Source of the DNA: Gemmatimonadaceae bacterium
GTDB taxonomy: Bacteria > Gemmatimonadota > Gemmatimonadetes > Gemmatimonadales > Gemmatimonadaceae
DNA: 37,455 bases
Direction of reading: 5' to 3'
Assembly: GCA_026786185.1 (NCBI GenBank)
Contig: JAJAYP010000241.1
Span: 1-37,455, forward strand
Position numbers and translations under genes: made by a program
The notes under the pieces: generated by a model
Databases searched by the model: none
What the model saw: the letters and a program-made list of their open reading frames with translations, nothing else
What the model was told of the DNA's origin: nothing
Shown: positions 907 through 20,510 of the stretch, piece after piece
Position numbering within the stretch: the first letter of the stretch is position 1
How the letters are laid out: every line of letters starts with the position of its first letter

Positions 907-1743
907 TCACGCGAGCCGTTCGACGAACCGTTCGACGAGCGCCTCGAACCGGGACGCGACGCGGGTGGTGGTCTCGAGCACCTCCGCGTGCGAGAGCGGA
1001 TGCGGCGAGATGCCTGCCGCGAGATTGGTGATGCAGCTGATGCCGGCGACGCGCATCGCCAAAGCTCGCGCGACGATCACTTCCGGAACGGTGGACATGC
1101 CGACGGCGTCGGCGCCGAGTGCGGCCAGCATTCGCACCTCGGAGGGCGTCTCGTACGTCGGCCCGAGCAGACCGCCGTACACTCCCTCCTGCAGGGGAAT
1201 ACCCAGCGTCAGCGCATGCGCACCCAGTTGTCGCGCGTACTCGTTATCGTAGGGCTCACTCATGTCGGGGAATCGCTCGTCGCCCGGTTCCAGCGCGCCG
1301 ACGAGCGGATTGCGGCCCGTGAGGTTCAGCTGATCCCGGATGAGCATCAGGTCGCCCGCCCGGAACGTGCGCCGTATGCCGCCGGCGGCGTTCGACACGA
1401 AGAGGGTGCGTGCGCCGAGTGCGTGGAGCACGCGTACGCTGAAACCGGCGAGCGCCGCGTCGTGTCCCTCGTACATGTGGAACCGTCCGGCGAGGGCGAT
1501 GACCTGCCGGCCCGCCAGCGTGCCGGCGATCAGCTGACCCGCGTGACCGACGACGGTGACCGTCGGAAAGCCGGGGACGTCTCCGAACGGCATGCTGACG
1601 GCGGCGACAATGCGCTGCGCCAGACCCCCAAGGCCCGAACCGAGCACGATACCGGCGACAGGTAACTCCGTACCGATGCGCTGGCGAATCGCGGAAGCGG
1701 CGAGGCGCGCCGAAGCGAAGCCGTAGGGCGACGGCGCGCTCAC
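907..1743 (-). CDS. punA: Purine nucleoside phosphorylase (PNP/MTAP family, trimeric type)
   Basis: 278 aa, the usual length for trimeric purine nucleoside phosphorylases, which split inosine or guanosine with phosphate into base and ribose-1-phosphate in the cytoplasm. Family motifs are clear: GSGLGGL near residue 36 (phosphate-binding loop), GHAGQL, RFHMYEGHD, FVSNAAGGI, a DQLNLTGRNPL segment, the GPTYETPSE motif, then MSTVPEVIVA and the C-terminal TNLAAG. It starts with GTG, and its GTGA overlaps the adenosine deaminase stop by 4 bp, implying translational coupling. As the last gene of the nucleotidase-deaminase-phosphorylase operon it would act on inosine made by the preceding enzyme. Substrate preference (inosine/guanosine versus methylthioadenosine) cannot be settled by eye. 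Confidence 0.95.
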   Translation of the reverse strand: MSAPSPYGFASARLAASAIRQRIGTELPVAGIVLGSGLGGLAQRIVAAVSMPFGDVPGFPTVTVVGHAGQLIAGTLAGRQVIALAGRFHMYEGHDAALAGFSVRVLHALGARTLFVSNAAGGIRRTFRAGDLMLIRDQLNLTGRNPLVGALEPGDERFPDMSEPYDNEYARQLGAHALTLGIPLQEGVYGGLLGPTYETPSEVRMLAALGADAVGMSTVPEVIVARALAMRVAGISCITNLAAGISPHPLSHAEVLETTTRVASRFEALVERFVERLA

Positions 1744-2789
1744 GCTCCCGCCGCGCGGAGCGCCGCGATCTCCAACTGCGCGCTGGCGACCAGCTGCAGC
1801 CGCTCGGCGTGGGGCAGGAAGCAGCTTTCGAATCCGTTCAGTGCGACGCGCGCCAACTCGTCGAAGCTGAAGTCGAGCGACTGCGCGGCATGGACGTATT
1901 CATCCGTGAGCGTCACGCCGCTCATGAGGCGATTGTCCGTGTTCAGCACCACGTTGAGCCCGCGATCGAAGTACTCACGAAAGGGATGCAGTGCATACGA
2001 CCGGGCGACGCGGGTCTGCACGTTGCTCGTGAGGCAGATCTCGAGCGCGATCCGGTGATCGTTGCAGTAGTCGGTGAGCGATGCGTCCTCGATGAGCCGG
2101 GTGGCATGTCCGAGTCGATCCGCACCACAGACGTGCACCGCCTGCCGCACGGACTCAGGCCCGTCACCCTCGCCGGCGTGACAGGTGCACGCGAGGTCGT
2201 GGTTGCGCGCGTACGCGAAGGCATGCGCGTGCGCGCGGGCGGGATGTCCACGCTCCCCTCCTGCCAGATCGAATCCCACGACGCCCTTGTGGCGGTACGC
2301 CACGGCGAGCTCGGCGAGCTCCTGTGACACCCCGGGCGACATGCTCCGGATCGCGGTGATGATGACGCGGCCGATCACGCCGTGCTCCCGCTCGGCGCGC
2401 GCCAGCCCACGCAGCGGCGCCTCCACCGCCTGCTCCAGCGACAGCCCTTCACGGACGCTCAGCACGGGCGCGTATCGCACTTCGAGATACCGCACGCCAT
2501 CGCGAGCGGCATCTTCCGCCAGCTCGAACGACACGCGCTCGAGCGACGCCTCCGACTGCATGACGGACAGGGTGACCGCGAACCGTTCGAGGTATTCCTC
2601 GAGATTGCGCGCGTCGCTGACCGTCATGTACTCTCTCAGGGCGTCGGCATCGGATGCCGGCATGGTGGCGCCTTTCTCACGCGCCAGCTCCAGCATCGTT
2701 TCCGGCCTGAGCGATCCGTCGAGGTGGCAATGCAGCTCGGCCTTGGGCAGTCGCCGCAGCGTCTCCCGCAGGCACTCAGCGTCCGTCAT
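1740..2789 (-). CDS. add: Adenosine deaminase
   Basis: 349 aa, normal for the family; hydrolyses adenosine or deoxyadenosine to inosine plus ammonia. The TIM-barrel metal site is visible: HxH at His20/His22 in KAELHCHLDGS, HAGEG around residue 200, the GADRLGHATRL motif, and LNTDNRLMSG carrying the metal-binding Asp in the form seen in many bacterial homologues. No signal peptide, so cytoplasmic. ATG at 2789 overlaps the stop of the upstream nucleotidase gene (ATGA) and its own stop overlaps the phosphorylase start, so the three genes are tightly coupled. An adenine deaminase cannot be fully excluded by eye, but the length and the SLRPETMLEL region fit adenosine deaminase. Confidence 0.95.
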   Translation of the reverse strand: MTDAECLRETLRRLPKAELHCHLDGSLRPETMLELAREKGATMPASDADALREYMTVSDARNLEEYLERFAVTLSVMQSEASLERVSFELAEDAARDGVRYLEVRYAPVLSVREGLSLEQAVEAPLRGLARAEREHGVIGRVIITAIRSMSPGVSQELAELAVAYRHKGVVGFDLAGGERGHPARAHAHAFAYARNHDLACTCHAGEGDGPESVRQAVHVCGADRLGHATRLIEDASLTDYCNDHRIALEICLTSNVQTRVARSYALHPFREYFDRGLNVVLNTDNRLMSGVTLTDEYVHAAQSLDFSFDELARVALNGFESCFLPHAERLQLVASAQLEIAALRAAGA

Positions 2790-5700
2790 CGAGCCTCAGC
2801 GGTGAGGACGAATCGTGCGTCGGTGGGCGCGCGCACCGGCTGTGGTCGAGTGCGCAGGTAGGTCACGAACGCGTCGAGGTCCACCACCGGCAGGACCTCG
2901 GTCCGTCGCGCTGCCGACGACAGGCCGAGACCGTCACCGCCAGTGGCGAGAAAATCGTTGAGGACCAGCGTGTACTCGCCGTCGGCTCGGAGGTCGACGC
3001 CATTGGCGAGGCGGATACGGCGGACTCGCCCGCCCACCGCCGCGGTGGAATCGTAGCTGACGACGATGCCGCTGACGTGCACGTTGAGTCGCCGGGCGAC
3101 GAGGCGCTCCATGTACGTCCGTAGCGCGGCGCCCGACACCGTCAGCCGGTACAGCGTGTTCGCGAACGGCTGCACCTCGAACAGCGCGCCGTACGTCGCG
3201 ACGCCTCGTCGCAGCGTGGCACGTATGCCGCCGTTGTTCATGACGGCCACGTCGCCGCCTCCCGCCGCGCGCATGGCATCGGCGATGAGATTGCCGCGCG
3301 AGTACTGGTCACCGTCGCGCACGAGGTCGTCGGCGATCGTCGCGACGCGACGGTCGACGATGGGGGCAACCCTGGCGACGGCGCGTTGCACGAGCGCGGC
3401 GACGGCGGGATCAGCCGCCATGGTCTCGGGAAGCACGTCTCGCACCCGGGGCCGGCTGCCGTCGGGACCCAGGTCGACGACGCCGAACGCCGTGCCGCTG
3501 GACCGCGACTGCACGATCGGGATGCCGTTGACGACCGTGCTGACGAGTGAATGCGTGTGCCCGCTGACGATGGCATCGACCGGCTCGCGAAGCCGGTTGG
3601 CGAATTCGACGATCTCACCGCGGCAGTTCGTCACGCCATCGCGATCGCAGAACGCGCCCTCATGGGCGACGACGACGACATAATCGGCCCCGCGCGCGCG
3701 CAGTCGGCGCGCGAGGCTGTCGACGACCGGCACCGGATCGATGAAGCGGAGGTCGGCGACGTTCGATGCCCGCGTCGTCGTGGGCGTCAGCGTCGTCGCG
3801 ACGCCGACCACGCCGATCTTGAGCGCGCCACGCGTGATCAGCGTGTCGTCCCGGATCCATGGAACGTCGCGACCATCGGCATAGCGGACGTTGGCCGCGA
3901 GCAGCGCGTATTTCGCGTCGCGCATGCGCGCCCGCAGGGTGTCCTGTCCCCAATCGAACTCGTGATTGCCGACCGCCGCCGCCGCGTATCCCATCGCGTT
4001 GAACAGCTCCACGACGGGACGGCCGAACGCGAGATTCGACGCTGGCGTCCCCTGGAACTGGTCTCCGCCGTCGAGCAGCAGCGTCTCGCACGCGGGAGAC
4101 TCACAACCCGCCCGTTCACGCGCGATGCCGGCGGCCAGATGGGCCGCGCCGCCGCGCAATCGGCGGGTGGCATCGGGGCGCGGCTCGAGCGCCCCGTGGA
4201 AATCGTGCGTCGCGATGACGCGCAGGCGCGGCACCGGCCGGGTCGCTCGCACGCTCGACGCAGTGGTGGACATCGCGGCACCTGGAGCGGCGGCCGGGGA
4301 GACCTGGCTGGTGCGCACCTCCGGTGTCTCGCGTCGCCGAAGCTGTCGATACAGGTCCCCCACCGCGCTCGCGGGCTCGATCCGCCAGTTGCGCGTGAAG
4401 TAGGTCCATGGGTTGATCGTTCCCCGCCGACGCACTTCATCCAGCAGGAGCTGCCGAATTTCTTCCTGCTTGTCGTACACGACGGGCGCGCCGGCGAGCA
4501 TGGAGTAACCGCCTCCCCCCGTCTGGCGGTAATTGTTGAGCGCGAGCGTGAAGCTGTCGGTGGGCGCGACTGCGCGTCCCTTGAAGTCGAGCCGGGTGAC
4601 GCGCTGCCCGATCGGACGCGACACGTCCAGCGTGTAATCCGCGCCTGCGACGATGTCGAAGTTGTAGCCCGGGACGTCGGGGTCCACGCCGACGGTGCCG
4701 TCGGGTGCGAGTCGGTAGTAGCGCGCGCTGTATTCGAGGTATGCCTTGAGCTGGCCTCCGCTGATGCGCACGGCGCGCAGCGTGTTGTCGTAGGGATACA
4801 GGGCCTGCAAGCGCGCGGCAGTGATGGTGCCCGAGTCGAGGGACGCGTCGAGCGAGAACGCGGCCGTGGACGCGAGATCGGCGCCCGCCGCCTTCCGCTG
4901 CGTTTCGAGAATGAAGTCGATGAGTGGCGTATCCACGACGCGGGACGAATCGGCGCGCCAGGCGACCGGCGTGCGCCCGATCGGCGCGGTGACCCAGGCG
5001 ATCGTGGCACGATGCGCCGCGTCCGTGACGGCAAGCACGATGGGATCCTCGGCGTGCCCGGCGGCCTGCACGACCGTCGAGCGCTTGTTCGCGACGCGCC
5101 AACCGGTCGCGCCGCGCACGAGGGCGAGATGTGCGACGGCGACGCTGCCTGCCCAGTTCCGCGGCTGCATGAGCAGCACGCCGTTGATCGTCGTGTCGGC
5201 GACTTCGCGGTGCGAGTGCCCGTAGAGGATCAGGTCGACTCCCGGTACCTCGTGCGCGACCCGTGCGGTGACGTTCTCGCTCGGCACGCCCGTGGAGACG
5301 GTGTCGTAGCTGGACGGCCCGTCGAGACCGGAGTGAATGGTCACGAGCACGATCGTCGCCCCGGCGGCGCGCACATCGGCAACGGCCGCCTTCACCTCTG
5401 GAATGACGTCCTTCACCACGATGCGGCCGGTCAGGTTGTCCCGATCCCAGACCATCGCGCCCGGTGTGGTGGCGCCGACGATGCCGATGCGGGCCTCGCC
5501 GCGCTGCACCATCGTCCACGCGGCGAAGGCTGGCTGGCCGTCGGGACGCAGCGCATTAGCCGCCATGAAGGGAAACCGCGACTGGCTGATGGCGCGCTGC
5601 AGCAGCGGCAATCCGTAATTGAATTCGTGGTTGCCGATCGCCGCGCCGTCGTACTTCATCGCATTCATCGCGCTCACCACCGGGTGTGGCGCGTCGGCGG

Positions 5701-6013
5701 GTGCGACCTTCCCCGCGACATACGTGAGGGCGTTGCCCTGCAGCAGGTCACCCGCGTCGAGGAGAATCACGCGGCCGGGCGCCGCGCGTCGCAGGGAGTC
5801 GACGATCGTCGCCGCTCGCGAGAGTCCGCGCGACGCGTCGGGCGCGTTGGTCTCGTAATTCCACCCGCGCAGACGGCCGTGTACGTCCGTGGTGCCCGCG
5901 ACGACGAGATCGAACGTGTCGCCGCCCGAGCCAGTTCCTCCCGCGCCACCGGAGGCGCACGCGGCGGCGAGCGAGAGGACGACCAGCATGATGTGATGAT
6001 TTCGGTTCCGCAT
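2786..6013 (-). CDS. Exported double-module nucleotide phosphoesterase (CpdB-like + UshA-like, YfkN-type lipoprotein)
   Basis: 1075 aa, about twice a normal 5'-nucleotidase. The N-terminus has a lipobox (LAAAC, Cys19), so the protein is exported and lipidated. Module 1 (about 35-545): TTDVHG 41-46, LDAGD 85-89, GNHEF 127-131, GHSH 265-268, then NNYRQTGGGGY near 493-503. The GLSRAAT stretch and the NNYR/GGG motif resemble CpdB 2',3'-cyclic phosphodiesterase/3'-nucleotidase. A Ser/Ala/Pro linker spans about 560-590. Module 2 (about 597-1060): ATHDFHG 601-607, LDGGD 647-651, GNHEFD 682-687, GHTH 818-821, GNLIAD 907-912, NNGGIR 926-931, TGGDG 1024-1028, as in UshA 5'-nucleotidases. Metal-binding residues look intact in both. 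This is the arrangement known from Bacillus YfkN. Likely role: release of phosphate and nucleosides from external nucleotides. Pho-box-like repeats lie 115 bp upstream. Confidence 0.93.
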   Translation of the reverse strand: MRNRNHHIMLVVLSLAAACASGGAGGTGSGGDTFDLVVAGTTDVHGRLRGWNYETNAPDASRGLSRAATIVDSLRRAAPGRVILLDAGDLLQGNALTYVAGKVAPADAPHPVVSAMNAMKYDGAAIGNHEFNYGLPLLQRAISQSRFPFMAANALRPDGQPAFAAWTMVQRGEARIGIVGATTPGAMVWDRDNLTGRIVVKDVIPEVKAAVADVRAAGATIVLVTIHSGLDGPSSYDTVSTGVPSENVTARVAHEVPGVDLILYGHSHREVADTTINGVLLMQPRNWAGSVAVAHLALVRGATGWRVANKRSTVVQAAGHAEDPIVLAVTDAAHRATIAWVTAPIGRTPVAWRADSSRVVDTPLIDFILETQRKAAGADLASTAAFSLDASLDSGTITAARLQALYPYDNTLRAVRISGGQLKAYLEYSARYYRLAPDGTVGVDPDVPGYNFDIVAGADYTLDVSRPIGQRVTRLDFKGRAVAPTDSFTLALNNYRQTGGGGYSMLAGAPVVYDKQEEIRQLLLDEVRRRGTINPWTYFTRNWRIEPASAVGDLYRQLRRRETPEVRTSQVSPAAAPGAAMSTTASSVRATRPVPRLRVIATHDFHGALEPRPDATRRLRGGAAHLAAGIARERAGCESPACETLLLDGGDQFQGTPASNLAFGRPVVELFNAMGYAAAAVGNHEFDWGQDTLRARMRDAKYALLAANVRYADGRDVPWIRDDTLITRGALKIGVVGVATTLTPTTTRASNVADLRFIDPVPVVDSLARRLRARGADYVVVVAHEGAFCDRDGVTNCRGEIVEFANRLREPVDAIVSGHTHSLVSTVVNGIPIVQSRSSGTAFGVVDLGPDGSRPRVRDVLPETMAADPAVAALVQRAVARVAPIVDRRVATIADDLVRDGDQYSRGNLIADAMRAAGGGDVAVMNNGGIRATLRRGVATYGALFEVQPFANTLYRLTVSGAALRTYMERLVARRLNVHVSGIVVSYDSTAAVGGRVRRIRLANGVDLRADGEYTLVLNDFLATGGDGLGLSSAARRTEVLPVVDLDAFVTYLRTRPQPVRAPTDARFVLTAEAR

Positions 6014-6127: not shown

Positions 6128-6159
6128 GATACAGGACCGTGACAGCGATCCCACTACAG
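6128..6159 (-). promoter_or_regulatory. Candidate Pho box upstream of the nucleotidase operon and udk-phoBR
   Basis: On the minus strand the sequence reads CTGTCAC, GGTC, CTGTATC (positions 6145 down to 6128). This is a 7-4-7 direct repeat matching the 11-bp phasing of PhoB boxes, with the first half identical to the classical CTGTCAC half-site. A further CTGTAGT lies just upstream (6159-6153), out of 11-bp phase. The repeats point toward the nucleotidase start (6013). They sit in the shared divergent region with udk-phoB-phoR, so they could serve both sides. Binding is inferred, not shown. Confidence 0.5.
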
Positions 6160-6221: not shown

Positions 6222-6848
6222 ATGAAGCCGCTGATCATCGGAATCGCCGGCGGATCCGGATCGGGCAAGAGTACGGTGGCGCGTAACGTCGCCGCCGCAC
6301 TGGGCGACGTGTCGGTCGCCTTCATCGACATGGATGCGTACTACCTCGACCATGGGCATCTCCCGCTCGAAGATCGCAAGCTCGTCAACTGGGATCATCC
6401 GAATGCCTTCGACTGGGAGCACCTCGTCCGACACCTCGGTGCGCTGGCGAGCGGCGAGGCGATCGACAAGCCGGTGTACGACTTCGTCGAGCACGCACGC
6501 GCCGAGACATGCGAACGCATCCCGCCCGCCGATGTCGTCGTCATCGATGGCATCCTCCTCTTCACCGACGCCCGGGTGCGAGATCTCTGCGACATCAAGG
6601 TGTTCGTCGATGCCGACGCCGACGTCCGGCTCATCCGGCGCATTCGGCGCGACATGGCGAAGCGTGGCCGTCCGCTGGCCGAGATCGTCGAGCAGTACCT
6701 GGCGACGGTGCAGCCCATGCACCTCGAATTCGTCGAGCCGAGCAAGCGGTACGCGGACGTGATCGTGCCGCGCGGCGGGCACAATCCGGTCGCGATCGAG
6801 ATGATCGTGGCCAAGATCGCGCGCAGCGTACAGGGGGCGAGGCCTTGA
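6222..6848 (+). CDS. udk: Uridine kinase
   Basis: 208 aa; phosphorylates uridine and cytidine with ATP or GTP (pyrimidine salvage, cytoplasm). P-loop GGSGSGKST at residues 10-18 follows the short leader that uridine kinases have, which is why ATG 6222 is preferred over an in-frame ATG at 6186. Further family marks are AFIDMDAYYLDH, the LVNWDHPNAFDWE segment, VVVIDGILLF, RLIRRIRRDMAKRG, and the C-terminal QPMHLEFVEPSKRYADVIVPRGG. Length matches E. coli Udk. Its stop overlaps the TTG start of the response regulator gene by 4 bp, which couples it to phoB-phoR. A nucleoside kinase fits functionally with the divergent nucleotide-scavenging operon. Confidence 0.94.
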   Translation: MKPLIIGIAGGSGSGKSTVARNVAAALGDVSVAFIDMDAYYLDHGHLPLEDRKLVNWDHPNAFDWEHLVRHLGALASGEAIDKPVYDFVEHARAETCERIPPADVVVIDGILLFTDARVRDLCDIKVFVDADADVRLIRRIRRDMAKRGRPLAEIVEQYLATVQPMHLEFVEPSKRYADVIVPRGGHNPVAIEMIVAKIARSVQGARP

Positions 6849-7567
6849 CCGGCACGGCGCCGGCCAGCGGCGAGCGGGTCCTCGTGGTGGACGACGAGGC
6901 GGACATCGTCGCGTTGGTGGCCTACCACCTGGCCAAGAGCGGCTACCGCGTGTCCACCGCTGCCTCTGGCGCCGACGCGCTCGACGCTGCGCGGCGCGAG
7001 CGCCCCGCGCTGGTCGTGCTGGACCTCATGCTGCCGGGGCTCTCCGGGTACGACGTGCTGGAGCAGCTTCGAGCCGGAGAGGGAACGCGCGACATCGCCG
7101 TCCTCATGCTCACCGCGCGGCGCGATGAGCAGGATCGCATTCGCGGACTGTCGCTCGGCGCGGACGACTACCTCACCAAGCCGTTCAGTCCGCAGGAGCT
7201 GGTGCTGCGCGTCGCGGCGATTCTTCGTCGCGTCGGTGCCGGCGCAACGAACGCGACGGACACGCTCGTCGTCGGCCCGCTCGAGATCGATACGGCAGCA
7301 CATGTCGTGCGCGTGAGTGGCCTGCCCGTGGAGCTGACCCCCACCGAGTTCAAGCTGCTGCTGACACTCGCCGAACGACGCGGTCGCGTGCAGGCGCGCG
7401 CGCATCTGCTGCAGACGGTGTGGGATGCCGCTCCCGATATCCAGACCCGTACGGTCGACATGCACGTCCAGCGTCTGCGCGCCAAGCTCGGGATCGCCGG
7501 CGATCTCGTCGAGACGGTGCGCGGCTTCGGCTACCGCCTTCGCGCGCCGCAGTCACGCGTCACGTGA
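6845..7567 (+). CDS. phoB: Response regulator, OmpR/PhoB family
   Basis: 240 aa. Receiver domain about residues 11-125: VVDDEAD, phosphoacceptor Asp60 in LDLMLPGLSGYD, Thr in MLTAR, Lys in YLTKPFSPQEL. Winged-helix DNA-binding domain about 140-235: ELTPTEFKLLLTL, DIQTRTVDMHVQRLRAKLG, TVRGFGYRL. The start is taken as TTG 6845, overlapping the udk stop (TTGA), with GGGGCGAGG just upstream; later in-frame GTG codons would remove the first beta strand. Its GTGA end overlaps the kinase start. The naming as PhoB rests on domain type plus location beside phoR, a porin, pst and phoU genes, and on Pho-box-like repeats nearby. It would activate phosphate-starvation genes. Confidence 0.9.
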   Translation: MTGTAPASGERVLVVDDEADIVALVAYHLAKSGYRVSTAASGADALDAARRERPALVVLDLMLPGLSGYDVLEQLRAGEGTRDIAVLMLTARRDEQDRIRGLSLGADDYLTKPFSPQELVLRVAAILRRVGAGATNATDTLVVGPLEIDTAAHVVRVSGLPVELTPTEFKLLLTLAERRGRVQARAHLLQTVWDAAPDIQTRTVDMHVQRLRAKLGIAGDLVETVRGFGYRLRAPQSRVT

Positions 7568-9273
7568 CGCTCGCTCGCCGACTCGTCCTCGGCTCGCTCA
7601 TCGTCGTCACGACCCTCGTCTTCGCCGTCGTCCTCATCGCGGGGGGACGGCTGCGTGACCGCCTGGTTGCCGAGAAGTTCGATGAGCTGGGTCGTGCGGC
7701 GCGCGTCGTCGCCCTCGGCTGGACGCGCGAGGTGAATGCCGACTCGCTCGCCGCCGCGGCGGGGACCGCGCTCGGCTACGGGGTGACGCTCATCGATACC
7801 AGCGGCACCGTCGTTGGCGATTCGGAGTTCGGCGCTGAGGCGCGCGGACGACTCGACATGCAGTCTGCGCGCGCGGAGGTCATCGCGGCGCGCGCGACCG
7901 GACTCGGGATGGCGCGTGGGCGGGGCAGCCCGTCCGGCGTCGAGGAGCTGTACGTCGCGGTGCGGCATCCCGTGGGCGTGGTGCGGATCTCGATCGCGAC
8001 CTCGCCGCTCGAGTCGGTGGTGCGCGGCGCCCAACGCGACGTCCTCATGAGCGGCCTCGTGGCGCTGATCGGTGTGCTGGTGCTCTCGACGATCTTCGCG
8101 CGCAGCATCTCGCAGCCGGTCGTGGAGCTTCGCGATGTCGCCCGTGCCATCGCCAGCGGTGACCTGAGCCGCCGCCCCGCGCTCTCCGCGCCAGGTGAGG
8201 TGGGCGACCTGGCGACGGCGGTCCATCGCATGACGGAACAGCTCGCGACCCGTCTCGAGGCGCTCGAGTCCGACGATCAGCTCATGACCGCGGTGCTCGA
8301 GTCCCTCGAGGAGGGCGTCCTGGCGATCGACGAGCGCGGCATGGTGGTGCGCATCAATCAGCGCGCGCGCATGCTGCTCAACGCGTCCGCGCCCCTGCCC
8401 TTTCCGCGCGAACTCCTGCCGCGCGACCCCGCCCTGCGAGCCGCGGTGGAGTACGCGATGTCGGGACGCACCACGCCACCCGAGGAGATCGCCTTGCACG
8501 ATCGAACGGTGGCCGTGGCGTCGCGACCGTTGTCACAGACGGGGGCCGTGGTGACGGTGCTCGACCTCACCGTGCTGCGGAAGCTGGAGACCATCCGCCG
8601 CGACTTCGTGGCCAACGTCAGTCACGAGCTGAAGACACCGCTCACCGCCGTGAGCGGGTTCGCCGAGACATTACTCGACGAGAACATCCCGAGCGACCAG
8701 CGTCGCCGGTTCGTGGAGACCATTCGGGACAACGCGTGGCGCATGCAGCGCATCGTGGACGACCTGCTCGATCTTTCGCGCATCGAGAGCGGCGGATGGC
8801 GACCCAACGTCGGCAACGTGGACGTGGCGGCAAGCGTGCGGGACGTGTTCGCGGCCGTGCGCGCGACCGCCGACGCGAAGGGGCTGAGCCTCGTCGCCGA
8901 CGTGCCACCCGGCGCCGCCATCGTGCAAGCCGATCCGACAGCGTTTCGCCAGGTGGTGAGCAACCTCGTGGAGAACGCCGTACGCTACACGCACGACGGC
9001 GCCGTGACCCTCCGGACGCGCCTCGGCGACACGGGAGTCTGGGTGGACGTGCGCGATACGGGTGTCGGCATCGCGCCCGAGCACGTACCGCGCATCTTCG
9101 AGCGGTTCTATCGCGTGGACTCGGGTCGCTCCCGCGAGCAGGGAGGAACGGGACTCGGCCTCGCGATCGTGCGCCATCTCGTCGACGCGCACGGCGGGCG
9201 TGTCGAGGCGGCCAGCGTGCTGGGACGTGGCACCACGATCAGCGTGCTCTTTCCGGCCACGCCGTCGGCCTGA
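7564..9273 (+). CDS. phoR: Sensor histidine kinase, PhoR-like
   Basis: 569 aa membrane kinase. TM1 about residues 7-28 (LVLGSLIVVTTLVFAVVLIA), an extracytoplasmic sensor stretch of about 130 residues, TM2 about 160-180 (SGLVALIGVLVLSTIF), then a HAMP domain (SISQPVVELRDVA...GDLSRR). A PAS-like domain follows (LESLEEGVLAIDERGMVV). HisKA has phosphoaccepting His354 in VSHELKTPL. HATPase_c shows NLVENAVRYTH, VRDTGVGIAPEH, FERFYRVD and GGTGLGLAIVRHLV. The GTG start overlaps the regulator stop (GTGA). The order TM-sensor-HAMP-PAS-HisKA fits PhoR kinases of the Pho system, where the kinase responds to Pst/PhoU state. The specific signal is inferred from neighbours. Confidence 0.9.
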   Translation: MTLARRLVLGSLIVVTTLVFAVVLIAGGRLRDRLVAEKFDELGRAARVVALGWTREVNADSLAAAAGTALGYGVTLIDTSGTVVGDSEFGAEARGRLDMQSARAEVIAARATGLGMARGRGSPSGVEELYVAVRHPVGVVRISIATSPLESVVRGAQRDVLMSGLVALIGVLVLSTIFARSISQPVVELRDVARAIASGDLSRRPALSAPGEVGDLATAVHRMTEQLATRLEALESDDQLMTAVLESLEEGVLAIDERGMVVRINQRARMLLNASAPLPFPRELLPRDPALRAAVEYAMSGRTTPPEEIALHDRTVAVASRPLSQTGAVVTVLDLTVLRKLETIRRDFVANVSHELKTPLTAVSGFAETLLDENIPSDQRRRFVETIRDNAWRMQRIVDDLLDLSRIESGGWRPNVGNVDVAASVRDVFAAVRATADAKGLSLVADVPPGAAIVQADPTAFRQVVSNLVENAVRYTHDGAVTLRTRLGDTGVWVDVRDTGVGIAPEHVPRIFERFYRVDSGRSREQGGTGLGLAIVRHLVDAHGGRVEAASVLGRGTTISVLFPATPSA

Positions 9274-9779: not shown

Positions 9780-10985
9780 TTAGAAGTTCACCATGAAGTG
9801 CAGGAAGTAGCCTTTTGATTGTACCGGCGGCGCGGTCGAGAGTCCGTTGTCCGTGGCCAGCGACTCCTGATAGTCGAGCGCAAACTGCGCGCGCTGGTTC
9901 AGGTCGTAGAACGCGCCACCGATGCGAGTGTGGTAGGAGTTCGACGTCGACGGCGGGACGGCGATACCGGTGGTGCTCGTGGACGGCGACACCCTGTCGT
10001 AGCGCGCCACGATCCCGAACGGCGACTTGCCGGTGCCGTTGGTGAAGGCGAAGGGACGGACCTGGGTCAGCCCGGACAACACCCGGCCCGTCGTCGTGGT
10101 GCCGACGCGCGCGGAGGCAGCGGTGTTCGCGCCGGCGTCACCGCCGTCGCGGCGCATCGCGAACTCACCGCCGAGCACGAGGCGCGGATCCCTGATGCCG
10201 ACGAACACACCCGCTCGGCTGCGCTCGAGCGCCGCGCCCACCGGCCCGACCTGTCCCGCCCCACCGTTCACGAAAGTGCTCGCGGTGGCGCCCTTGTAGC
10301 CCCATCCGGTGAGCGTGAAGCTCTGCAGCAGCGGCATGTCCGTCCTGTTGGCGAGCGGTGTCAGCGACAGCCGGATCGCGTAGTCCTTGAACCGGTCGCG
10401 CTCACGCGAGGTGTAACCGGGTCCGTTCATGATCGTGGCGTACATGTCGCCCATCCTGTTCGGAAGCGCTGCGCCGGCGGCGAGGCCCACGTCGGCCGAG
10501 GAGAAGAAGCCAGCCCGCTCGACGGCGCTCTGGCTGAGGTAGCGCGGCCAGAACGATTCGACGTGCTCGATGATTACGTTCTGCAGGATGCCCAGCCGGG
10601 CAAACATGCTGGCGCCGTTCGAGAACTTCGGCGCGTCGTACTGCAGGTAGGCGTACTTTGCGCGGATGGTGTAGGCGTTCTGGGTATTGGTCTCGGACGT
10701 CTGATACACGTCGGTGGTGACGCGAATGCTCAGACGGTCGCCGGCGGGCGCGCGAAAGTTGAGGTACGCGCGGTCGATGATGAAGCCGTTGTTGTTCTGG
10801 TTCGTCAGCTGCGCCGGCGTGGTGCGCATCTGGTAGTTGTAGCTGCCAAAGATCAGGCCGGAGACGCTGAGCGGCGGCACGGCAGCGGCCGGTTGCGCGG
10901 GGGCAGTCTGCGCGGCGAGTGGAGCGGACGCGATCAGCGCGACGAACGTGGCGAGCGGGAACCGCAGGGTGGGCATGCGGGGCAT
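9780..10985 (-). CDS. Outer-membrane beta-barrel porin, probably phosphate-selective type
   Basis: 401 aa with a signal peptide (PLATFVALIASAPLAAQ) and a mature part of alternating aromatic/polar strands: LIFGSYNYQ, FIIDRAYLNFRAP, LSIRVTTDVYQ, AKYAYLQYD, VESFWPRYLSQ, ending FLHFMVNF with a C-terminal Phe, the outer-membrane barrel assembly signal. The opening (SGLIFGSYNY, then DRAYLNFR and RLSIRVTTDVY) resembles the OprO/OprP phosphate-selective porin family. The gene lies divergent from pstC and next to phoBR, so import of phosphate across the outer membrane is a reasonable inference. Substrate specificity cannot be read from sequence. ATG 10985 is used; ATG 10976 is also possible. Confidence 0.82.
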   Translation of the reverse strand: MPRMPTLRFPLATFVALIASAPLAAQTAPAQPAAAVPPLSVSGLIFGSYNYQMRTTPAQLTNQNNNGFIIDRAYLNFRAPAGDRLSIRVTTDVYQTSETNTQNAYTIRAKYAYLQYDAPKFSNGASMFARLGILQNVIIEHVESFWPRYLSQSAVERAGFFSSADVGLAAGAALPNRMGDMYATIMNGPGYTSRERDRFKDYAIRLSLTPLANRTDMPLLQSFTLTGWGYKGATASTFVNGGAGQVGPVGAALERSRAGVFVGIRDPRLVLGGEFAMRRDGGDAGANTAASARVGTTTTGRVLSGLTQVRPFAFTNGTGKSPFGIVARYDRVSPSTSTTGIAVPPSTSNSYHTRIGGAFYDLNQRAQFALDYQESLATDNGLSTAPPVQSKGYFLHFMVNF

Positions 10986-11074
10986 GGGGTTGTCGAGGCG
11001 TGGAAAAAACGACGCGCTCGCCGAGGTCCTGCGGCGGCGACGAAATGACTTCGCGGTCGTTTAACGAATGCCGC

Positions 11075-11127
11075 CTGACCGGTGAGCGGCACCGTCGTGA
11101 CCGGACCGTTACATGACCGGGGACAAT
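11075..11127. promoter_or_regulatory. Candidate Pho box and -10 in the porin-pstC divergent region
   Basis: On the minus strand ATGTAAC (11114-11108), GGTC and CGGTCAC (11103-11097) form a 7-4-7 repeat with the same GGTC spacer as the box near 6135. A further CGGTCAG lies at 11081-11075, in 22-bp (2 x 11) phase. On the plus strand these appear as three TGACCGG copies at 11076, 11098 and 11114. GACAAT at 11122-11127 is a possible -10 for pstC (4/6 to TATAAT) with no -35, as expected at PhoB-activated promoters. The half-sites deviate from CTGTCAT, so this is weaker than the other two candidates. Confidence 0.42.
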
Positions 11128-11158
11128 TCGCGACCCCCTTCGATGAGGTTTCGGTGCG

Positions 11159-12217
11159 ATGAAGCGCCCTTCCCCCGACGCGACCGCGATACCACGTACG
11201 TCAGTGGCCTCAGCCTCCTCGTCCGACTCCTCCCCCCCGACGGCGACCGGCGCTTCGATCCTCTCGTCCGCCGAGCCGGCCCGGCATCTCCCGTCGATCC
11301 AGGGCTCGGTGGTCGCCGACCGGATCTACCGCACGGCCATCCTGTTCTTCGCGCTGTGCGTGCCGGTACTGCTGCTGCTCATCTTCGTCGAGGTTGGCGT
11401 GGCGGGCTGGCCGGCGCTCCGGCAGTTCGGCTTCAGCTTCCTGACGTCCAGCACCTGGGATCCGGTCAAGGGAGAATTCGGGGCGGCGCCCGCCATCTTC
11501 GGCACCCTCCTCACGTCGATCATCGCGCTCGTGATCGCGACGCCGCTTGCCCTGGGCGGCGCGATCTTCCTTTCGGAGTTCTCCCCGCGCTGGTTGCGGC
11601 AGCCGGTGTCGTTCCTGATCGATCTGCTCGCCGCGGTTCCCAGCGTCGTGTTCGGCCTCTGGGGCGTCTTCGTTCTCGTGCCGCTGTTGCGCACCGGGCT
11701 CATGCCGTTCCTGCGGGATACGCTGCATCTGGGCGCAACGCCGTTCTTCAGCGGCCCGGCCTACGGACCGAGTGTGCTGGCGGCCGGATTGATCCTCGCC
11801 ATCATGGTGCTGCCGTACATCGCCGCGGTGTCACGCGAGGTGCTCATGGCCGTTCCGCGCTCGCAGCGCGAGGCGGCGCTCGCGCTGGGTGCGACCCGAT
11901 GGGAGGCGATCACCGGCGCTGTCCTGCCGTACGCGCGAACGGGCATCTTCGGCGGCATCATCCTCGGGCTGGGCCGAGCGCGCGGCGAGACGATGGCGGT
12001 GACGATGGTGATCGGCAATCGGCACGAGCTTGCGGCCTCGCTGTTCGCGCCGGGTTACACCATGGCGTCGCTGATCGCGAACGAATTTGCCGAGGCCACG
12101 ACCGACATCCATCTCTCGGCATTGATGGCCGTCGGATTTGTGCTGTTCCTCATCACGCTGATCGTGAACGGCATCGCGAGACTGCTGGTGCGACGCGTCG
12201 GCGAGGTGCGCGCATGA
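11159..12217 (+). CDS. pstC: Phosphate ABC transporter permease PstC
   Basis: 352 aa inner-membrane permease of the high-affinity phosphate importer. The first 50 or so residues form an unusual Ser/Pro/Thr-rich cytoplasmic extension. The core then follows with TM1 (AILFFALCVPVLLLLIFVEV), FGFSFLTSSTWDPV, GAAPAIFGTLLTS, the PLALGGAIFLSEF helix, LLAAVPSVVFGLWGVFVLVPLL, and the EAA loop REAALALGATRWEAI near residue 238, where the ATPase docks. The order of PstC motifs (the STWDP segment, AVPSVVFGLWG) is characteristic. ATGA overlap with pstA. First gene of the pstCABB-phoU chain; the 173-bp upstream region is shared with the divergent porin and holds Pho-box-like repeats. Confidence 0.96.
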   Translation: MKRPSPDATAIPRTSVASASSSDSSPPTATGASILSSAEPARHLPSIQGSVVADRIYRTAILFFALCVPVLLLLIFVEVGVAGWPALRQFGFSFLTSSTWDPVKGEFGAAPAIFGTLLTSIIALVIATPLALGGAIFLSEFSPRWLRQPVSFLIDLLAAVPSVVFGLWGVFVLVPLLRTGLMPFLRDTLHLGATPFFSGPAYGPSVLAAGLILAIMVLPYIAAVSREVLMAVPRSQREAALALGATRWEAITGAVLPYARTGIFGGIILGLGRARGETMAVTMVIGNRHELAASLFAPGYTMASLIANEFAEATTDIHLSALMAVGFVLFLITLIVNGIARLLVRRVGEVRA

Positions 12218-13110
12218 GCGCTGGCGCCGCCGGCCGCGATCGGGCGGAAATCCGGCCACGCGCGAGCGGACTCGCGCGCCGCAGAGGGGTGAGCGTGGTG
12301 ATGGTGACGCTCACCTGCATCGCGGCGGCGATCGCAGTCGTTCCCTTGCTCGTCATTCTCGGCTACCTGCTCAAGCAGGGTGCGGGCGCGCTCTCGCTCG
12401 ACTTCTTCACGAGCATGCCGAAGCCGGTGGGCGAGGAGGGTGGCGGCATGGCGAACGCAATCGTCGGCACGCTCATGCTGCTGGGTATCGCGTCGATGGT
12501 CGGACTGCCGGTCGGCATCGGCGCGGGCCTGTACCTGGCCGAGCGACGGGGGACGCGGCTCGCCAACCTCGTGCGCTTTCTCGCCGACGTGCTGAATGGA
12601 CTGCCCTCGATCGTGATGGGCATCTTCGCCTGGCAGTTCCTCGTGCGGCCCTTCGGGCACTTCTCGGCACTGGCGGGTGGGGCGGCCATCGGGGCGATGA
12701 TGATTCCGCTCGTCACGCGGACGACGGAGGAGATGGTCCGCACGGTGCCGCAATCGCTGCGCGAAGCGGCGCTCGCCCTCGGGTACCCGCGATGGCGCAC
12801 CTCGCTGCAGATCGTCCTGCGCACCGCGCTTGGCGGCATCGTCACGGGTGTGCTCGTGGCCGTGGCCCGCGTCGCGGGAGAGACGGCCCCACTGTTGTTC
12901 ACCGCGTTCGGCAATTCGTTCTGGTCCACCAACCTCGGGCAGCCCATCGCGGCGCTGCCGCTCCAGATCTTCACGTACGCGATCAGCCCGTACGACGACT
13001 GGCACGAGCTGGCATGGGCGGGCGCGCTGGTGTTGATTGCGCTCGTGCTGGTGATCAGTCTCGTCGCACGCGTCGTCACGCGCGCGCGACATGGCGGCGG
13101 GCATGACTGA
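12214..13110 (+). CDS. pstA: Phosphate ABC transporter permease PstA
   Basis: 298 aa, normal length. Partner permease of PstC. TM1 is VVMVTLTCIAAAIAVVPLLVILGYLL near residue 28. Family motifs follow: FFTSMPKPVGEEGGG, ANAIVGTLMLLGIAS, GIGAGLYLAE, the LNGLPSIVMGIFAW segment typical of PstA, MIPLVTRTTEEM, the EAA motif LREAALALGYPRW, and near the end VARVAGETAPLLFTAFG. ATG 12214 overlaps the pstC stop by 4 bp. Its end overlaps the first pstB gene by 8 bp (20 bp if the earlier ATG is used). The two permeases form the membrane channel for phosphate delivered by PstS, which is encoded 6 kb away on the other strand. Confidence 0.96.
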   Translation: MSAGAAGRDRAEIRPRASGLARRRGVSVVMVTLTCIAAAIAVVPLLVILGYLLKQGAGALSLDFFTSMPKPVGEEGGGMANAIVGTLMLLGIASMVGLPVGIGAGLYLAERRGTRLANLVRFLADVLNGLPSIVMGIFAWQFLVRPFGHFSALAGGAAIGAMMIPLVTRTTEEMVRTVPQSLREAALALGYPRWRTSLQIVLRTALGGIVTGVLVAVARVAGETAPLLFTAFGNSFWSTNLGQPIAALPLQIFTYAISPYDDWHELAWAGALVLIALVLVISLVARVVTRARHGGGHD

Positions 13111-13924
13111 GCTGGTTTCGCTCCGCGAGACCGAGCCCGTGACGGCCGGCGCGCGCGGCGCACCGTGCGCCATGCGTGCCGTCGGGCTCAACGCGTACTT
13201 CGGCGCGACGCAGGCGGTGAGGGATGTCGCGCTGGACGTACCGGCGAACGAGGTGACGGCCATCATCGGACCGTCCGGGTGTGGCAAGTCGACGCTGTTG
13301 CGCACCTTCAACCGGATGCACGAGACAGTGCCCACCGCGCGCATCACGGGCCAGGTGTTCTTCCACGGTCAGGATATCTACGGCGACGACGTGAACCCGA
13401 TCACGCTGCGCCGCTACGTGGGCATGGTGTTTCAGCGGCCGACGCCCTTCCCCACCATGTCGATCAGGGACAACGTCGCGGCGGGGCTCCGGGTGCAGTC
13501 AGGCGACAAGCTCGATCGCCGGCAGGTGGATGAGATCGTCGAGCGCGCGCTTCGCGAGGCCGCATTGTGGGACGAGGTGAAGGATCGGCTGAAGGCGAGC
13601 GCGACCGGCATTTCCGGTGGCCAGCAGCAGCGCCTCTGCATCGCGCGAGCGCTGGCCACGGCGCCGCATGTGCTGTTGCTCGATGAGCCGACCGCGTCGC
13701 TGGACCCCTTGAGCTCGCAGAAGGTAGAAGAGCTGGTGTACGAGCTGCGGAAGACGATGACGGTGGTCATCGTGACGCACAACATGCAGCAGGCCGCGCG
13801 CGTCTCCGACCGAACGGTGTTCATGTTGTCGGGCCAGCTGGTGGAGACCGCGCCGACACGCGTGATGTTCACCGCGCCGACCGATCCGCGGACCGAGGCT
13901 TATATCACGGGCAGGTTCGGATGA
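13103..13924 (+). CDS. pstB: Phosphate ABC transporter ATP-binding protein PstB, copy 1
   Basis: 273 aa. ABC ATPase energising PstCA. Walker [11 protein letters not shown]-loop [15 protein letters not shown], signature SGGQQQR, Walker [14 protein letters not shown]-loop [14 protein letters not shown], and the PstB-type ending [13 protein letters not shown] 13103 is preferred because GGCGGG precedes it; ATG 13091 would add MAAG. The Q-loop region differs from the usual PNPFP-MSIYDNV form ([13 protein letters not shown]), and the copy has an N-terminal leader of about 25 residues. Directly followed by a second pstB through an ATGA overlap. Both copies keep all catalytic motifs, so two working ATPases, possibly as a heterodimer or alternates, are likely. 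Confidence 0.94.
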
Positions 13925-14718
13925 CCGCGGCACCGGAGATGGGCCCCGTGCCAGACCGGCGCCGGCACGGCCGCATCGATGTGGAGCACTTCGAGTTCTG
14001 GTACGGGAAGAGCCAGTCGCTCTTCGACCTGAACCTCCAGATCACGCCGCGCGCGGTGACGGCGTTCATCGGGCCGTCCGGGTGTGGCAAGTCCACCTTT
14101 CTCCGGTCGATCAATCGCCTCAACGAGTTGATCCCGGGCGCACGGCGCGCCGGCATGATCCGGCTGGACGGCGAGAACATCTATCAACAGGGGATGGACG
14201 TCGTCACGCTCCGGCAGCGGGTGGGCATGGTGTTCCAGCGCTGGAACCCCTTTCCCAAGTCGATCTACGACAACGTGGCGTACGGTCCGCGGATCAATGC
14301 GAGTCCGTCGCGACAGGAGCTCGACGTGGTCGTCGAATCGGCGCTGCGACGGGCGGCGCTCTGGGACGAGGTGAAGGATCGCCTGCGTGAGAGTGCGCTC
14401 GCGCTGTCGGGAGGCCAGCAGCAGCGGCTGTGCATCGCCCGCGCACTCGCGAACGATCCCGAGGTGCTCCTGCTCGACGAACCGGCATCGGCGCTCGATC
14501 CGAGCGCGACGCAGAAGATCGAGGAACTGGTGTACGAGCTCAAGCGCGAGCTTACCATCGTCATCGTCACGCACAACTTACAGCAGGCGGCGCGTATCTC
14601 CGATCGTACCGCGTTCTTCTACCTCGGCCGTCTCGTCGAGATGGAGGACACGCAGCGGCTCTTCACGAGTCCGCGCGAGGAGCGCACGGAAGCCTACATC
14701 ACGGGGAGATTCGGATGA
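13921..14718 (+). CDS. pstB: Phosphate ABC transporter ATP-binding protein PstB, copy 2
   Basis: 265 aa. Walker [11 protein letters not shown]-loop [24 protein letters not shown] (closer to the usual PstB form), signature SGGQQQR, Walker [14 protein letters not shown]-loop [14 protein letters not shown], ending EAYITGRFG. The second of two adjacent pstB genes; ATG 13921 overlaps the stop of copy 1, and its own stop overlaps the phoU start (ATGA). The copies share overall design and the [16 protein letters not shown] region but differ at many positions, so the duplication is not recent. Two different ATPases with one permease pair is unusual but known from some bacteria. Confidence 0.95.
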
Positions 14719-15422
14719 GCCCAACAGACGCACCATTCCGCCACTTTCACGACCAGCTCACGGCGTTGAATCGCCGGCTGTTGACGATGTCGGAAAAGGC
14801 GGAGGCGCTGGTCGAGCTGTCGGTCGAGGCGCTGCTCGCCAAGGACGAAGGCAAGGCGGAGGCGGTGATCGCCGCCGATCGCGAGCTGGATACCATGGAG
14901 ATCGAGATCGAGGCCGACGCGCTCGAGCTGCTGGCGTTGCAGCAGCCGATGGCGCGGGATCTCCGGTTCATCGTCAGCGCGATCAAGGTCACGAGCGATC
15001 TGGAGCGCGTGGGCGATCATGCCGTGAACATCGCGCAGGCGGCCCTTCGCCTGATTTCCCAGCGCACGAACATCACGCCCGATCCCGAGATCGAGGACAT
15101 GGCGCGCCGAGCGCGATCCATGCTCGGCGACGCGATCGACGCCTTCCTGCGCGCCGATGGCACGCTGGGACGCGACGTCTGCGCGCGCGACGACCAGGTG
15201 GACTCGCTGCACGAGTCGGTTTTCCGGATCCTTCTCACGCACATGATGGCCGACCCGCGCACGATCAACCCTTCGCTCGAGTACCTGCTCGTGAGCCGAA
15301 ACCTGGAGCGAGTCGCCGACCTCGCGACCAACATCGGCGAGGACGCCGTGTTCCTGGCGGAAGGCAAGAACATCAAGCATGGTGGGGGCGATTCCGCACG
15401 CGCCGGGACCTTCACTTCCTGA
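14715..15422 (+). CDS. phoU: Phosphate transport regulator PhoU
   Basis: 235 aa, typical PhoU length. Two related three-helix PhoU repeats: the first centred on [30 protein letters not shown], split here by [20 protein letters not shown], and the second on the [12 protein letters not shown] region followed by [24 protein letters not shown]. The E/DxxxD metal-binding type motifs ([25 protein letters not shown]) are present. PhoU links Pst transport state to PhoR and limits Pho-regulon expression and phosphate uptake. ATG 14715 overlaps the pstB stop. Ends 12 bp before ppx. Confidence 0.96.
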
Positions 15423-15434: not shown

Positions 15435-17075
15435 ATGACCGAGACCGCGCCGCGACTCACTGTTTCCACGCGACCTTCGCGGACGCCGCGCGGCGTTCCC
15501 GGCGCCCGCCGCATCGCGGCGATCGACATCGGCTCCAACTCGGTGCGCCAGAGCGGCGCCGACGTCACGCCTCACGGCGGCATCACCGTGGTGGACGAGA
15601 TGAAGGCCGCGCCACGACTCGGTGCGGACCTCGACGTCACGGGGGTGCTGGGCACGACCGCGATGGAGCGCGCCGCGGAGGCCGTCGGCCGCATGGCCAC
15701 GCTCGCGCGACAGCCCGGCGCGACGCGGATCGAGGCGGTGGCGACGAGCGCGGTGCGCGACGCATCGAATGGCCAGCAGTTCGTCTCGCGCGTTCGGCAG
15801 GAGGCGGGCCTGGAGTTGCGGATCATCGACGGAGCGGGCGAGGCGAGGCTCTCCTGGCTGAGCGCCCTCGCGCACTTCGACGTCGGTCGCGGGCGGACGG
15901 TCGTGATGGACATCGGCGGCGGCTCACTGGAGCTCGCACTCGCCGCCGATGGCGTGCTCGACGACCTCGTGTCGCTGCCGTTCGGCGCGCTACGGCTGAC
16001 CGAGCGGTATCTGCGCGGCGGATCGGGGCCCAGGGCGGTGGAGAAGCTTCGCAAGCACGTGCGTGACGCGCTGAAGAACGTCCTGCCGCGGCGCGACTGG
16101 CGTGGCGCCCAGGTCATCGGCTCAGGCGGCACGTTCACCAATCTCGCCGGCGTCCACCTCGCTCGGCGCGGGATGCTCGTCGCCCGGAACGTGCACGCGA
16201 CCGCGGTGCCACGAGAAGAGGTCGAGCATATCCTCGACATGCTGGCGGCCATGCCGGCCGACGAACGCGGCGGCGTAACCGGGCTCAATCCAGAACGATC
16301 GGACATCATCGTGGCCGGCATCGCCGTCGCGGCGGAGGTGATGGCGCGGCTCGAAGCGAGGGACATCCATGTCTCGCGCTACGGCATTCGCGAGGGACTG
16401 CTGCTCGAGATCGCCCGCATCACGCCATCGGTGGCCGACCCGGGTGAAGCGCGAGAACGATCGGTGCGCGAGTTCGCGGAACGCTGCCACTACGAAGAGG
16501 GACATGCTTCGCAGGTGCAGCGGCTGGCGCTCCGCCTGTTCGACGCCGTCGGCGCACGGCTCGGCTGCGGACCGGACGAGCGACAGACACTCGGCGACGC
16601 CGCGCTGCTGCACGACGTCGGCTACCACATCAACTACGACCGGCACCACAAGCACTCGTACCATCTCATCCTGCATGCCGAGCTGCTGGGGATCACGCCG
16701 AGCGAGCAGGTGGTGATCGCGAACGTGGCGCGGTATCACCGCGGCGCGCCGCCGAAGAAGAAGCATCGCAACTTCAGCGGTCTCGACAAGGATCTTCGCG
16801 ACAGGATTCTCAGGCTTTCGGCCATCCTGCGGGTGGCCGACGGGCTCGATCGCGGGCACGTGGGCGCCGTCCGCGAGCTCGGCATCCGCTATCTCGAGCG
16901 CGCCCTCCGCATCACGCCGCGGCCGGCGAAAGGGGCGCGACAACTTCGGCTCGAGCTCTGGGGTGCCCACCGGAAGTCACAACTGCTCGCCGAACTTGCG
17001 GGAATCCCGGTGGAGATCGTGGCGAAGAACGGTGTCGTGCTGTCGTCGACCGAGGTGGACGCGATCGAGGGGTGA
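15435..17075 (+). CDS. ppx: Exopolyphosphatase / Ppx-GppA family with C-terminal HD domain
   Basis: 546 aa. Removes phosphate from polyphosphate ends, or hydrolyses pppGpp in GppA members. Actin-like ATPase fold: phosphate-1 motif IAAIDIGSNSVR near residue 29, EAVATSAVRDASNG, phosphate-2 motif VVMDIGGGSLEL near 156, and IGSGGTFTNLAGV near 230. The C-terminal HD-type region shows AALLHDVGYHINY, HKHSYHLI, ANVARYHRG and LRVADGLDRGH. After SVR the usual hydrophobic residue is replaced (QSGADV), a minor oddity. ATG 15435 is 12 bp after phoU with GGACGGGGT upstream, so it belongs to the pst-phoU transcript. It is convergent with ppk, 22 bp apart, giving opposing polyphosphate enzymes on opposite strands. 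Confidence 0.92.
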   Translation: MTETAPRLTVSTRPSRTPRGVPGARRIAAIDIGSNSVRQSGADVTPHGGITVVDEMKAAPRLGADLDVTGVLGTTAMERAAEAVGRMATLARQPGATRIEAVATSAVRDASNGQQFVSRVRQEAGLELRIIDGAGEARLSWLSALAHFDVGRGRTVVMDIGGGSLELALAADGVLDDLVSLPFGALRLTERYLRGGSGPRAVEKLRKHVRDALKNVLPRRDWRGAQVIGSGGTFTNLAGVHLARRGMLVARNVHATAVPREEVEHILDMLAAMPADERGGVTGLNPERSDIIVAGIAVAAEVMARLEARDIHVSRYGIREGLLLEIARITPSVADPGEARERSVREFAERCHYEEGHASQVQRLALRLFDAVGARLGCGPDERQTLGDAALLHDVGYHINYDRHHKHSYHLILHAELLGITPSEQVVIANVARYHRGAPPKKKHRNFSGLDKDLRDRILRLSAILRVADGLDRGHVGAVRELGIRYLERALRITPRPAKGARQLRLELWGAHRKSQLLAELAGIPVEIVAKNGVVLSSTEVDAIEG

Positions 17076-20323: not shown

Positions 20324-20401
20324 TGGCTTCACGGGAATGGGGTGGGACACGCGGTAAAGATCGCCAGTCTGCGACGCGTTGCCGCGGTCGGACCACCTGC
20401 T

Positions 20402-20419
20402 GTGACACGATAGATACAT
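20402..20419 (-). promoter_or_regulatory. Candidate Pho box upstream of pstS
   Basis: On the minus strand ATGTATC (20419-20413), TATC and GTGTCAC (20408-20402) form a 7-4-7 direct repeat. The six-mers TGTATC and TGTCAC are exactly those of the candidate box at 6128-6145, in swapped order. The orientation faces pstS and the distance to the start is about 79 bp. PhoB binding is inferred. Confidence 0.5.
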
Positions 20420-20510
20420 AGGCGGCCGGCGCTTACACAGCGGATCAGGCCGTAACGCGCTCCGAACCGTGGCTCGGTCGACCACGCGCTAGCGGGCGCG
20501 GGTGAATTCA

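Follow-up and report, generated by a model that had tools for sequence, protein, structure and literature searches.

The DNA analysed here (the window) is a contig of 37,455 nucleotides from a Gemmatimonadaceae bacterium (assembly GCA_026786185.1, contig JAJAYP010000241.1). Three adjacent genes on it, encoding an exported double nucleotidase, an adenosine deaminase (ADA) and a purine nucleoside phosphorylase (PNP), are best explained as a Pho-regulon-type operon for scavenging purine nucleotides under phosphate starvation, and a small beta-grasp protein (SML), which is encoded within the operon in most relatives, would serve the futalosine route of menaquinone synthesis there. A probability of about 0.6 is given to this joint reading. 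The window itself carries ordinary enzymes, encoded in an operon that is well conserved and probably under phosphate control; what is new is the small gene, which is missing from the window's lineage.

The operon and its phosphate-regulon surroundings

All three open reading frames (ORFs) are located on the minus strand, at the place given for them in an earlier note on this DNA. The nucleotidase (1075 aa; 2786-6013) was identified from its ORF and from Pfam, PDB sequence and NCBIfam matches, the ADA (add, 349 aa; 1740-2789) from A_deaminase, TIGR01430 and conserved motifs, and the PNP of the inosine/guanosine class (278 aa; 907-1743) from PNP_UDP_1 and TIGR01700. Stop and start codons overlap by 4 bp, as had been noted: ATGA at 2786-2789 joins the nucleotidase to the ADA, and GTGA at 1740-1743 joins the ADA to the PNP. 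These overlaps make the proposed translational coupling likely, and the genes may form a single transcription unit. A sigma-70 promoter search at the operon gave no hit and a terminator search gave one on the opposite strand; both are uninformative for this phylum.

The ADA scored 337 bits to A_deaminase in Pfam and 314.4 bits to the TIGR01430 equivalog in NCBIfam (cut-off 216.55), and was under the cut-offs of the narrower PRK09358 models. Its HxH, HAGE, GH and NTD motifs are kept, and the H, H, H, E, H and D columns of the ADA alignment are invariant. The PNP passed the inosine/guanosine-specific model TIGR01700 narrowly, at 296.8 bits against a cut-off of 293.35. Family membership thus supports the series of reactions proposed before, in which nucleotides would be split into nucleosides and phosphate, and adenosine would be converted via inosine to hypoxanthine and ribose-1-phosphate. 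A second PNP, with 51% identity to the operon PNP, is encoded in genome G000 (contig 197, 14043-14840).

The nucleotidase contains two 5_nucleotid_C and two Metallophos stretches in one chain, which correspond to two complete nucleotidase units in the Pfam and PDB sequence searches. Unit 1 (residues ~31-550) matches 4q7f/3qfk of the 5' nucleotidase family best, followed by YfkN and CpdB; the best matches of unit 2 (residues ~593-1070) are nucleotidases including UshA and CD73. The metal-site motifs DxH, D(A/G)GD and GNHE are present in both units, and the N-terminus, judged by eye, resembles a lipoprotein signal with Cys19. The protein has the YfkN layout: a CpdB-like unit first and an UshA-like unit second, in a single chain. 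Orthology to YfkN is not claimed; the cut-off of the best NCBIfam model, the multifunctional PRK09419, was missed (520 vs 1646 bits for PRK09419.1-1). In all 62 retrieved loci where both units were found, the window included, unit 1 and unit 2 match best within a single ORF, and in G071 an extra C-terminal piece lies in a second ORF. Only a single unit was found in 17 of 66 relatives of the window's family and in 11 of 39 of its sister family.

These comparisons were made among 200 genomes of the phylum, in which f1 denotes the window's family and f2 the sister family. Profile matches were obtained in 129 genomes for the nucleotidase, 141 for the ADA (window included; E <= 1e-35) and 187 for the PNP. 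The surroundings of the ADA were retrieved from 132 genomes in addition to the window. The ADA matches in G001, G046, G054, G060, G149 and G163 were omitted as paralogues of 31-36% identity or weak matches, and those in G180 and G194 as fragments. The operon survey covers genomes with an ADA match; of the 59 without one, G199 alone was used, and stretches of G095 and G186 retrieved along with it were set aside. In the family-level counts (66 f1 relatives, 39 f2 loci), loci cut by a contig edge were counted as misses, and the order-level table excludes G175 and G148, where the contig stops at the site.

In f1, the nucleotidase is found within 600 bp upstream of the ADA in 57 of the 66 loci, the PNP downstream in 65, and both in 56. 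The corresponding numbers for the 39 f2 loci are 24, 37 and 22. The arrangement is not due to chance, because it recurs in f1 with both neighbours in 56 of 66 loci. Conservation of the gene order in relatives, on which the earlier note had made its interpretation depend, is thus found in f1 and f2 and is limited to part of the phylum: the order is absent in all 17 of the more distant loci, those labelled f5+ and f6. None of the other genes searched for accompanies the ADA in the 15 f5+ loci, and the same holds for the two f6 loci, one of which has udk nearby.

On the other side of the operon head, a uridine kinase gene, udk (6222-6848, plus strand; Pfam/NCBIfam; translation may instead begin further upstream, at a GTG at 6186), is transcribed divergently. 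It overlaps by 4 bp with the gene of a PhoB-type response regulator (6845-7567, plus; best NCBIfam model TIGR02154 PhoB, under its cut-off), which is followed by that of a PhoR/PnpS-type sensor kinase (7552-9273, plus; ORF open from 7420, best matches under cut-offs). PhoB/PhoR seems the best name for this pair; it is not proven, because both score under the equivalog cut-offs. A divergent phoB is present in 59 of the 66 f1 loci and 30 of the 39 f2 loci, whereas udk lies in the retrieved stretch in 49 and 0, respectively. The suggestion that the uridine kinase handles pyrimidine nucleosides for this pathway is therefore weak.

An 18-bp site resembling the E. coli PHO-box consensus, CTGTCAC-GGTC-CTGTATC, is located at 6128-6145 on the operon (minus) strand, 115 bp before the start of the nucleotidase gene. 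It is a predicted PhoB site. By itself a single such site proves nothing; its recurrence in the family says more. On the operon strand of the f1 upstream regions, 48 of 61 scored at least 9.8 and 22 of 61 at least 10.8. The opposite strand gave 9 of 61 and 0 at these thresholds, and length-matched ADA coding sequence gave 6 of 61 and 0. Furthermore, 35% of the 89 upstream regions from all families beat every one of 30 shuffles, where ~3% was expected. When the pattern was run on the window, one exact match was obtained by construction, with 1.8 chance matches expected at up to 3 mismatches; the exact match is uninformative, since the pattern was derived from the window's own site.

The phosphate genes continue beyond the sensor kinase: a permease gene (11159-12217, plus; BPD_transp_1), pstA (end of the ORF 11113-13110, plus; family match), two adjacent pstB genes (13091-13924 and 13921-14718, plus; both exceed the TIGR00972 cut-off), phoU (14715-15422, plus; family match), a Ppx/GppA phosphatase gene (15435-17075, plus; family match), the polyphosphate kinase gene ppk (17098-19224, minus; family match) and pstS (19250-20485, minus; family match). 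A large ORF between phoR and the permease genes (9819-11048) showed no Pfam or NCBIfam match and may be non-coding.

In the proposed scheme, PhoB would control the operon. The exported YfkN-like double enzyme would act on 2',3'-cyclic, 3'- and 5'-nucleotides to release nucleosides and phosphate, and this phosphate would enter via the neighbouring Pst system. Purine nucleosides would enter via a transporter, and ADA and PNP would then convert adenosine to hypoxanthine and ribose-1-phosphate. The earlier note had remarked that an uptake step is implied and not encoded here, and this agrees with the present result: neither a NupC nor a NupG match was found in the window's assembly, which is 92% complete, while the f2 operon has, between the genes for ADA and PNP, one for the concentrative nucleoside transporter NupC, which adjoins the ADA in 33 of 39 loci. 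The NupC family is present in 118 of the 200 genomes and in 12 of 69 f1 genomes, and a NupG-type symporter in 33 of 39 genomes of the window's family; these two are the likely carriers. Taken as a whole, the earlier interpretation is supported in part. The YfkN layout of the nucleotidase, the phosphate-regulon neighbourhood and the extra small gene of the relatives were missed in it.

The small beta-grasp protein and the menaquinone route

SML is encoded by an ORF between the nucleotidase and the ADA, whose length of ~70-95 codons varies with the start assigned. It was found at L015:5118-5369 and at 97 further retrieved loci. A profile built from nine copies matched 103 of the 200 genomes at E <= 0.01 and 100 at E <= 1e-5; the latter threshold was used for calling its presence. 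In 66 of the 82 loci where both genes were found, a possible SML start codon lies exactly 4 bp inside the end of the nucleotidase gene. Fusion of SML to the N-terminus of the ADA occurs in 14 of 98 loci, of which 12 belong to f2 and two to f7. Since most relatives have the small gene at this position, the direct 4-bp overlap of nucleotidase and ADA in the window looks like a derived state.

The predicted fold of SML is a beta-grasp (AlphaFold mean pLDDT 86.6; 66 of its 86 residues reach at least 90), with TGS, SAMP1/MoaD and ferredoxin-like domains as structural neighbours. Assignment to a single family by fold was rejected, as many beta-grasp families tie. A natural SML-ADA fusion was predicted as one confident chain (pLDDT 93.6, pTM 0.91), in which the small domain is less certain (pLDDT 75-92) and the ADA part matches adenosine deaminases. 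No convincing match was obtained in Pfam (48 members searched), NCBIfam or PHROG (15 members). The commonest weak Pfam matches were again to beta-grasp families: Fer2_4 in 14 of 48 (best 0.0003) and TGS in 2 of 48. Among the best 80 ADA loci in the genome collection, SML was nearby in 17, all from Gemmatimonads, which is weak evidence for other phyla. No paper on a beta-grasp partner of ADA or on this operon was found in the open-licence literature.

The presence of SML follows the menaquinone route, and for this reason a role in the futalosine step is proposed. MqnA/MqnD of the futalosine pathway (PF02621) was found in 125 of the 200 genomes, and MenD of the classical pathway exceeded its cut-off in 65, none of which has MqnA/D. 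SML is present in 98 of the 125 genomes with MqnA/D (Mqn+) and in 2 of the 75 without (Mqn-). Of the 108 loci of f1-f3, 106 were assessable: 95 have SML, and all of these are in Mqn+ genomes without MenD over the cut-off. Within f1 and f2, too, all 95 loci with SML are in Mqn+ genomes, and all six Mqn- genomes are without SML. The loci without both SML and MqnA/D (6 of 106) are those of the window, G196, G016, G191, G020 and G050. The MenD cut-off is passed in the window's genome, in G191 and in G020, and the match in G196 is partial; in G016 and G050 neither MqnA/D nor MenD over the cut-off was found. The inferred losses of MqnA/D fall in five clades on a four-gene FastTree and in six on a three-gene tree, and each coincides with a loss of SML. 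The chance of such co-loss by branch length is ~1e-5 and 5e-7, respectively, a calculation that ignores lineage bias in gene loss. According to an excerpt of a published survey, the futalosine pathway is the preferred one in Gemmatimonadales, another group favouring the classical route, and the preference in this phylum is called unclear there (PMC9426454).

The genome of the window itself is on the classical side. It has no PF02621 match, and contig 159 of the assembly carries genes for isochorismate synthase (menF), MenD, MenH, MenB, MenA and MenE in a row. The SML profile gave no match in this genome at E <= 1. SML elsewhere in the genome was thereby rejected, as two other members of the genus, both of them sources of the profile, are matched by it at ~1e-33.

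In the relatives, SML is a further member of the operon, encoded directly before the ADA or fused to it, and with this ADA or another deaminase it may serve the conversion of 6-aminodeoxyfutalosine to futalosine. The window's lineage, which carries the Men route, would have dropped SML and kept the ADA for salvage alone. The proposed help of SML in this deamination rests on the fusion, the co-loss, the activity reported for ADA-family enzymes and a gene of G019: a futalosine-hydrolase-like gene (94 bits, cut-off 124.7) is located there two genes upstream of an MqnA/D-family gene. ADA-family enzymes of the COG1816 type reportedly have 6-aminodeoxyfutalosine deaminase activity (Goble et al., 2013). 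A more specific form of the proposal can be put forward tentatively, at somewhat less than even odds: in Gemmatimonadota the futalosine deaminase might be a two-part enzyme made of the salvage ADA and the beta-grasp protein, with SML being lost upon a switch to the Men route and the ADA reverting to salvage.

Weighing of the explanations

Several observations weigh against the joint reading. SML was not found in 27 of the 125 Mqn+ genomes. Some of these are contig-end cases (G175, G094), and sequenced sites truly without SML are those of G026, G105, G108, G038 and G043, which make up the Mqn+ loci without SML among the 106; the same is true of Mqn+ genomes from f4, from f6 and, in one case, from f8. 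Conversely, two Mqn- genomes of f7, which have the Men route, carry SML fused to ADA. Four supported independent pairs of genomes differ in MqnA/D, and all are concordant in the sign test (p 0.125); another six pairwise comparisons differ in SML, and of these four are concordant and MqnA/D does not differ in the other two. In a weak test, the futalosine hydrolase model TIGR03664 matched 47 of 200 genomes, of which 2 were over the cut-off, which leaves the requirement for a deaminase uncertain in most. The ADA seems to work without SML and to have work of its own, because unusual residues at conserved sites are not enriched in the ADA of the group without SML and MqnA/D (0-5, compared with a median of 2 in SML-containing loci). 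The ADA is less conserved in the Mqn+ groups without SML, which show 7-10. At two ADA positions, residues were unusual in most of the six Mqn- genomes (five at position 56, four at position 196); these were given no weight as convergent changes, since both positions are variable and more than 300 sites were examined. In addition, G199, whose genome is one 5.5-Mb contig, has the order nucleotidase-SML-NupC-PNP (L247) together with MqnA/D and gave no ADA match at E <= 1e-35, which leaves room for a more distant deaminase; the deaminase search used the ADA profile, and COG0402-type deaminases lie outside it. SML is therefore not strictly an ADA subunit, and in G199 it tracks the futalosine pathway better than it tracks the ADA. 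As to the scavenging part, the operon strand in f2 showed an E. coli-type PHO box at a score of at least 9.8 in 0 of 27 regions, with a PHO-box-like site on the phoB strand in 4 of 27, and nucleoside uptake is unproven in the window's organism because its 92%-complete assembly has neither carrier.

SML could instead be a regulatory or assembly factor, lost together with MqnA/D through shared ecology or gene replacement. This is a real possibility, if not one to be favoured: SML without MqnA/D in f7, MqnA/D without SML in several lineages and the retention of SML without ADA in G199 are readily accommodated, but all inferred MqnA/D losses in f1 and f2 match SML losses, and the fusion partner deaminates a 6-aminopurine nucleoside, the one type of reaction that is required. 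The absence of SML and MqnA/D from the window could also be an assembly gap, as the 3.5-Mb assembly consists of 327 contigs, the window being one of them. This is very improbable: the SML site is sequenced, the 4-bp overlap leaves no room for the gene, the nucleotidase and ADA overlap in G196 of the same genus too, and the alternative men genes are present. Similarly, the ADA of the window might be taken for the 6-aminodeoxyfutalosine deaminase of menaquinone synthesis, given that the Mqn route is usual in the family, where 35 of 39 genomes have MqnA/D, and that such activity is reported for ADA-family enzymes. The lack of a MqnA/D match and the menF-D-H-B-A-E cluster led to rejection of this role, which is largely refuted for the window.

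A plain purine salvage operon, with nucleosides as a carbon or nitrogen source and the Pho genes as mere neighbours, appears unlikely. It would explain why the products of ADA and PNP are ribose-1-phosphate and base and not phosphate, why f2 adds a nucleoside transporter and shows no PHO box of the E. coli type on its operon strand, and why ADA and PNP adjoin phoB in some relatives without any nucleotidase. The divergent phoB in most loci of f1 and f2 and the PHO-box-like site conserved in f1 stand against it, as does the precedent of YfkN within a phosphate regulon, so far as the source describes it (PMC8475336). Scavenging under phosphate control, with SML in the futalosine route of the relatives, is therefore preferred.

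Relation to known systems

With these results, a phylum of which few members are in culture gains a concrete operon for phosphate scavenging and a predicted site for its regulator. They also point to an unnamed protein family that tracks the choice between two known menaquinone pathways, by which a specific deaminase experiment becomes possible.

The ADA of the window shares the metal-binding and catalytic motifs of bacterial Add (TIGR01430) and exceeds the cut-off of that family. The ADA of the relatives differs from Add in the preceding or fused beta-grasp domain, to which neither the family nor the paper searches made here gave a name. It is also in the same superfamily as the 6-aminodeoxyfutalosine deaminase of the COG1816 type; the step is proposed for the relatives only, since the window's genome carries the Men route and gave no match to MqnA/D.

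SML shares its predicted fold with MoaD/ThiS, TGS, SAMP1 and ferredoxin-like domains, the top structural matches being at Z of about 8.7 (for a TGS domain, 63 residues at 1.9 Å). It differs from the ThiS/MoaD sulfur carriers in its C-terminal tails, which are variable in the SML alignments and have no conserved Gly-Gly. These alignments show no conserved Cys either.

The closest parallel to the nucleotidase seems to be YfkN of B. subtilis, which is described in the part of the source available as the product of a cpdB-ushA fusion that is induced when cells are starved of phosphate (PMC8475336). The window protein is likewise predicted to be one exported chain with a CpdB-like and then an UshA-like unit, and the phosphate-starvation link given there resembles the Pho-gene setting of the window. 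YfkN is a 2',3'-cyclic-nucleotide 2'-phosphodiesterase/3'-nucleotidase/5'-nucleotidase; the window protein differs from it in its length of 1075 aa, in the lipoprotein-like signal seen by eye, and in being followed by ada and pnp.

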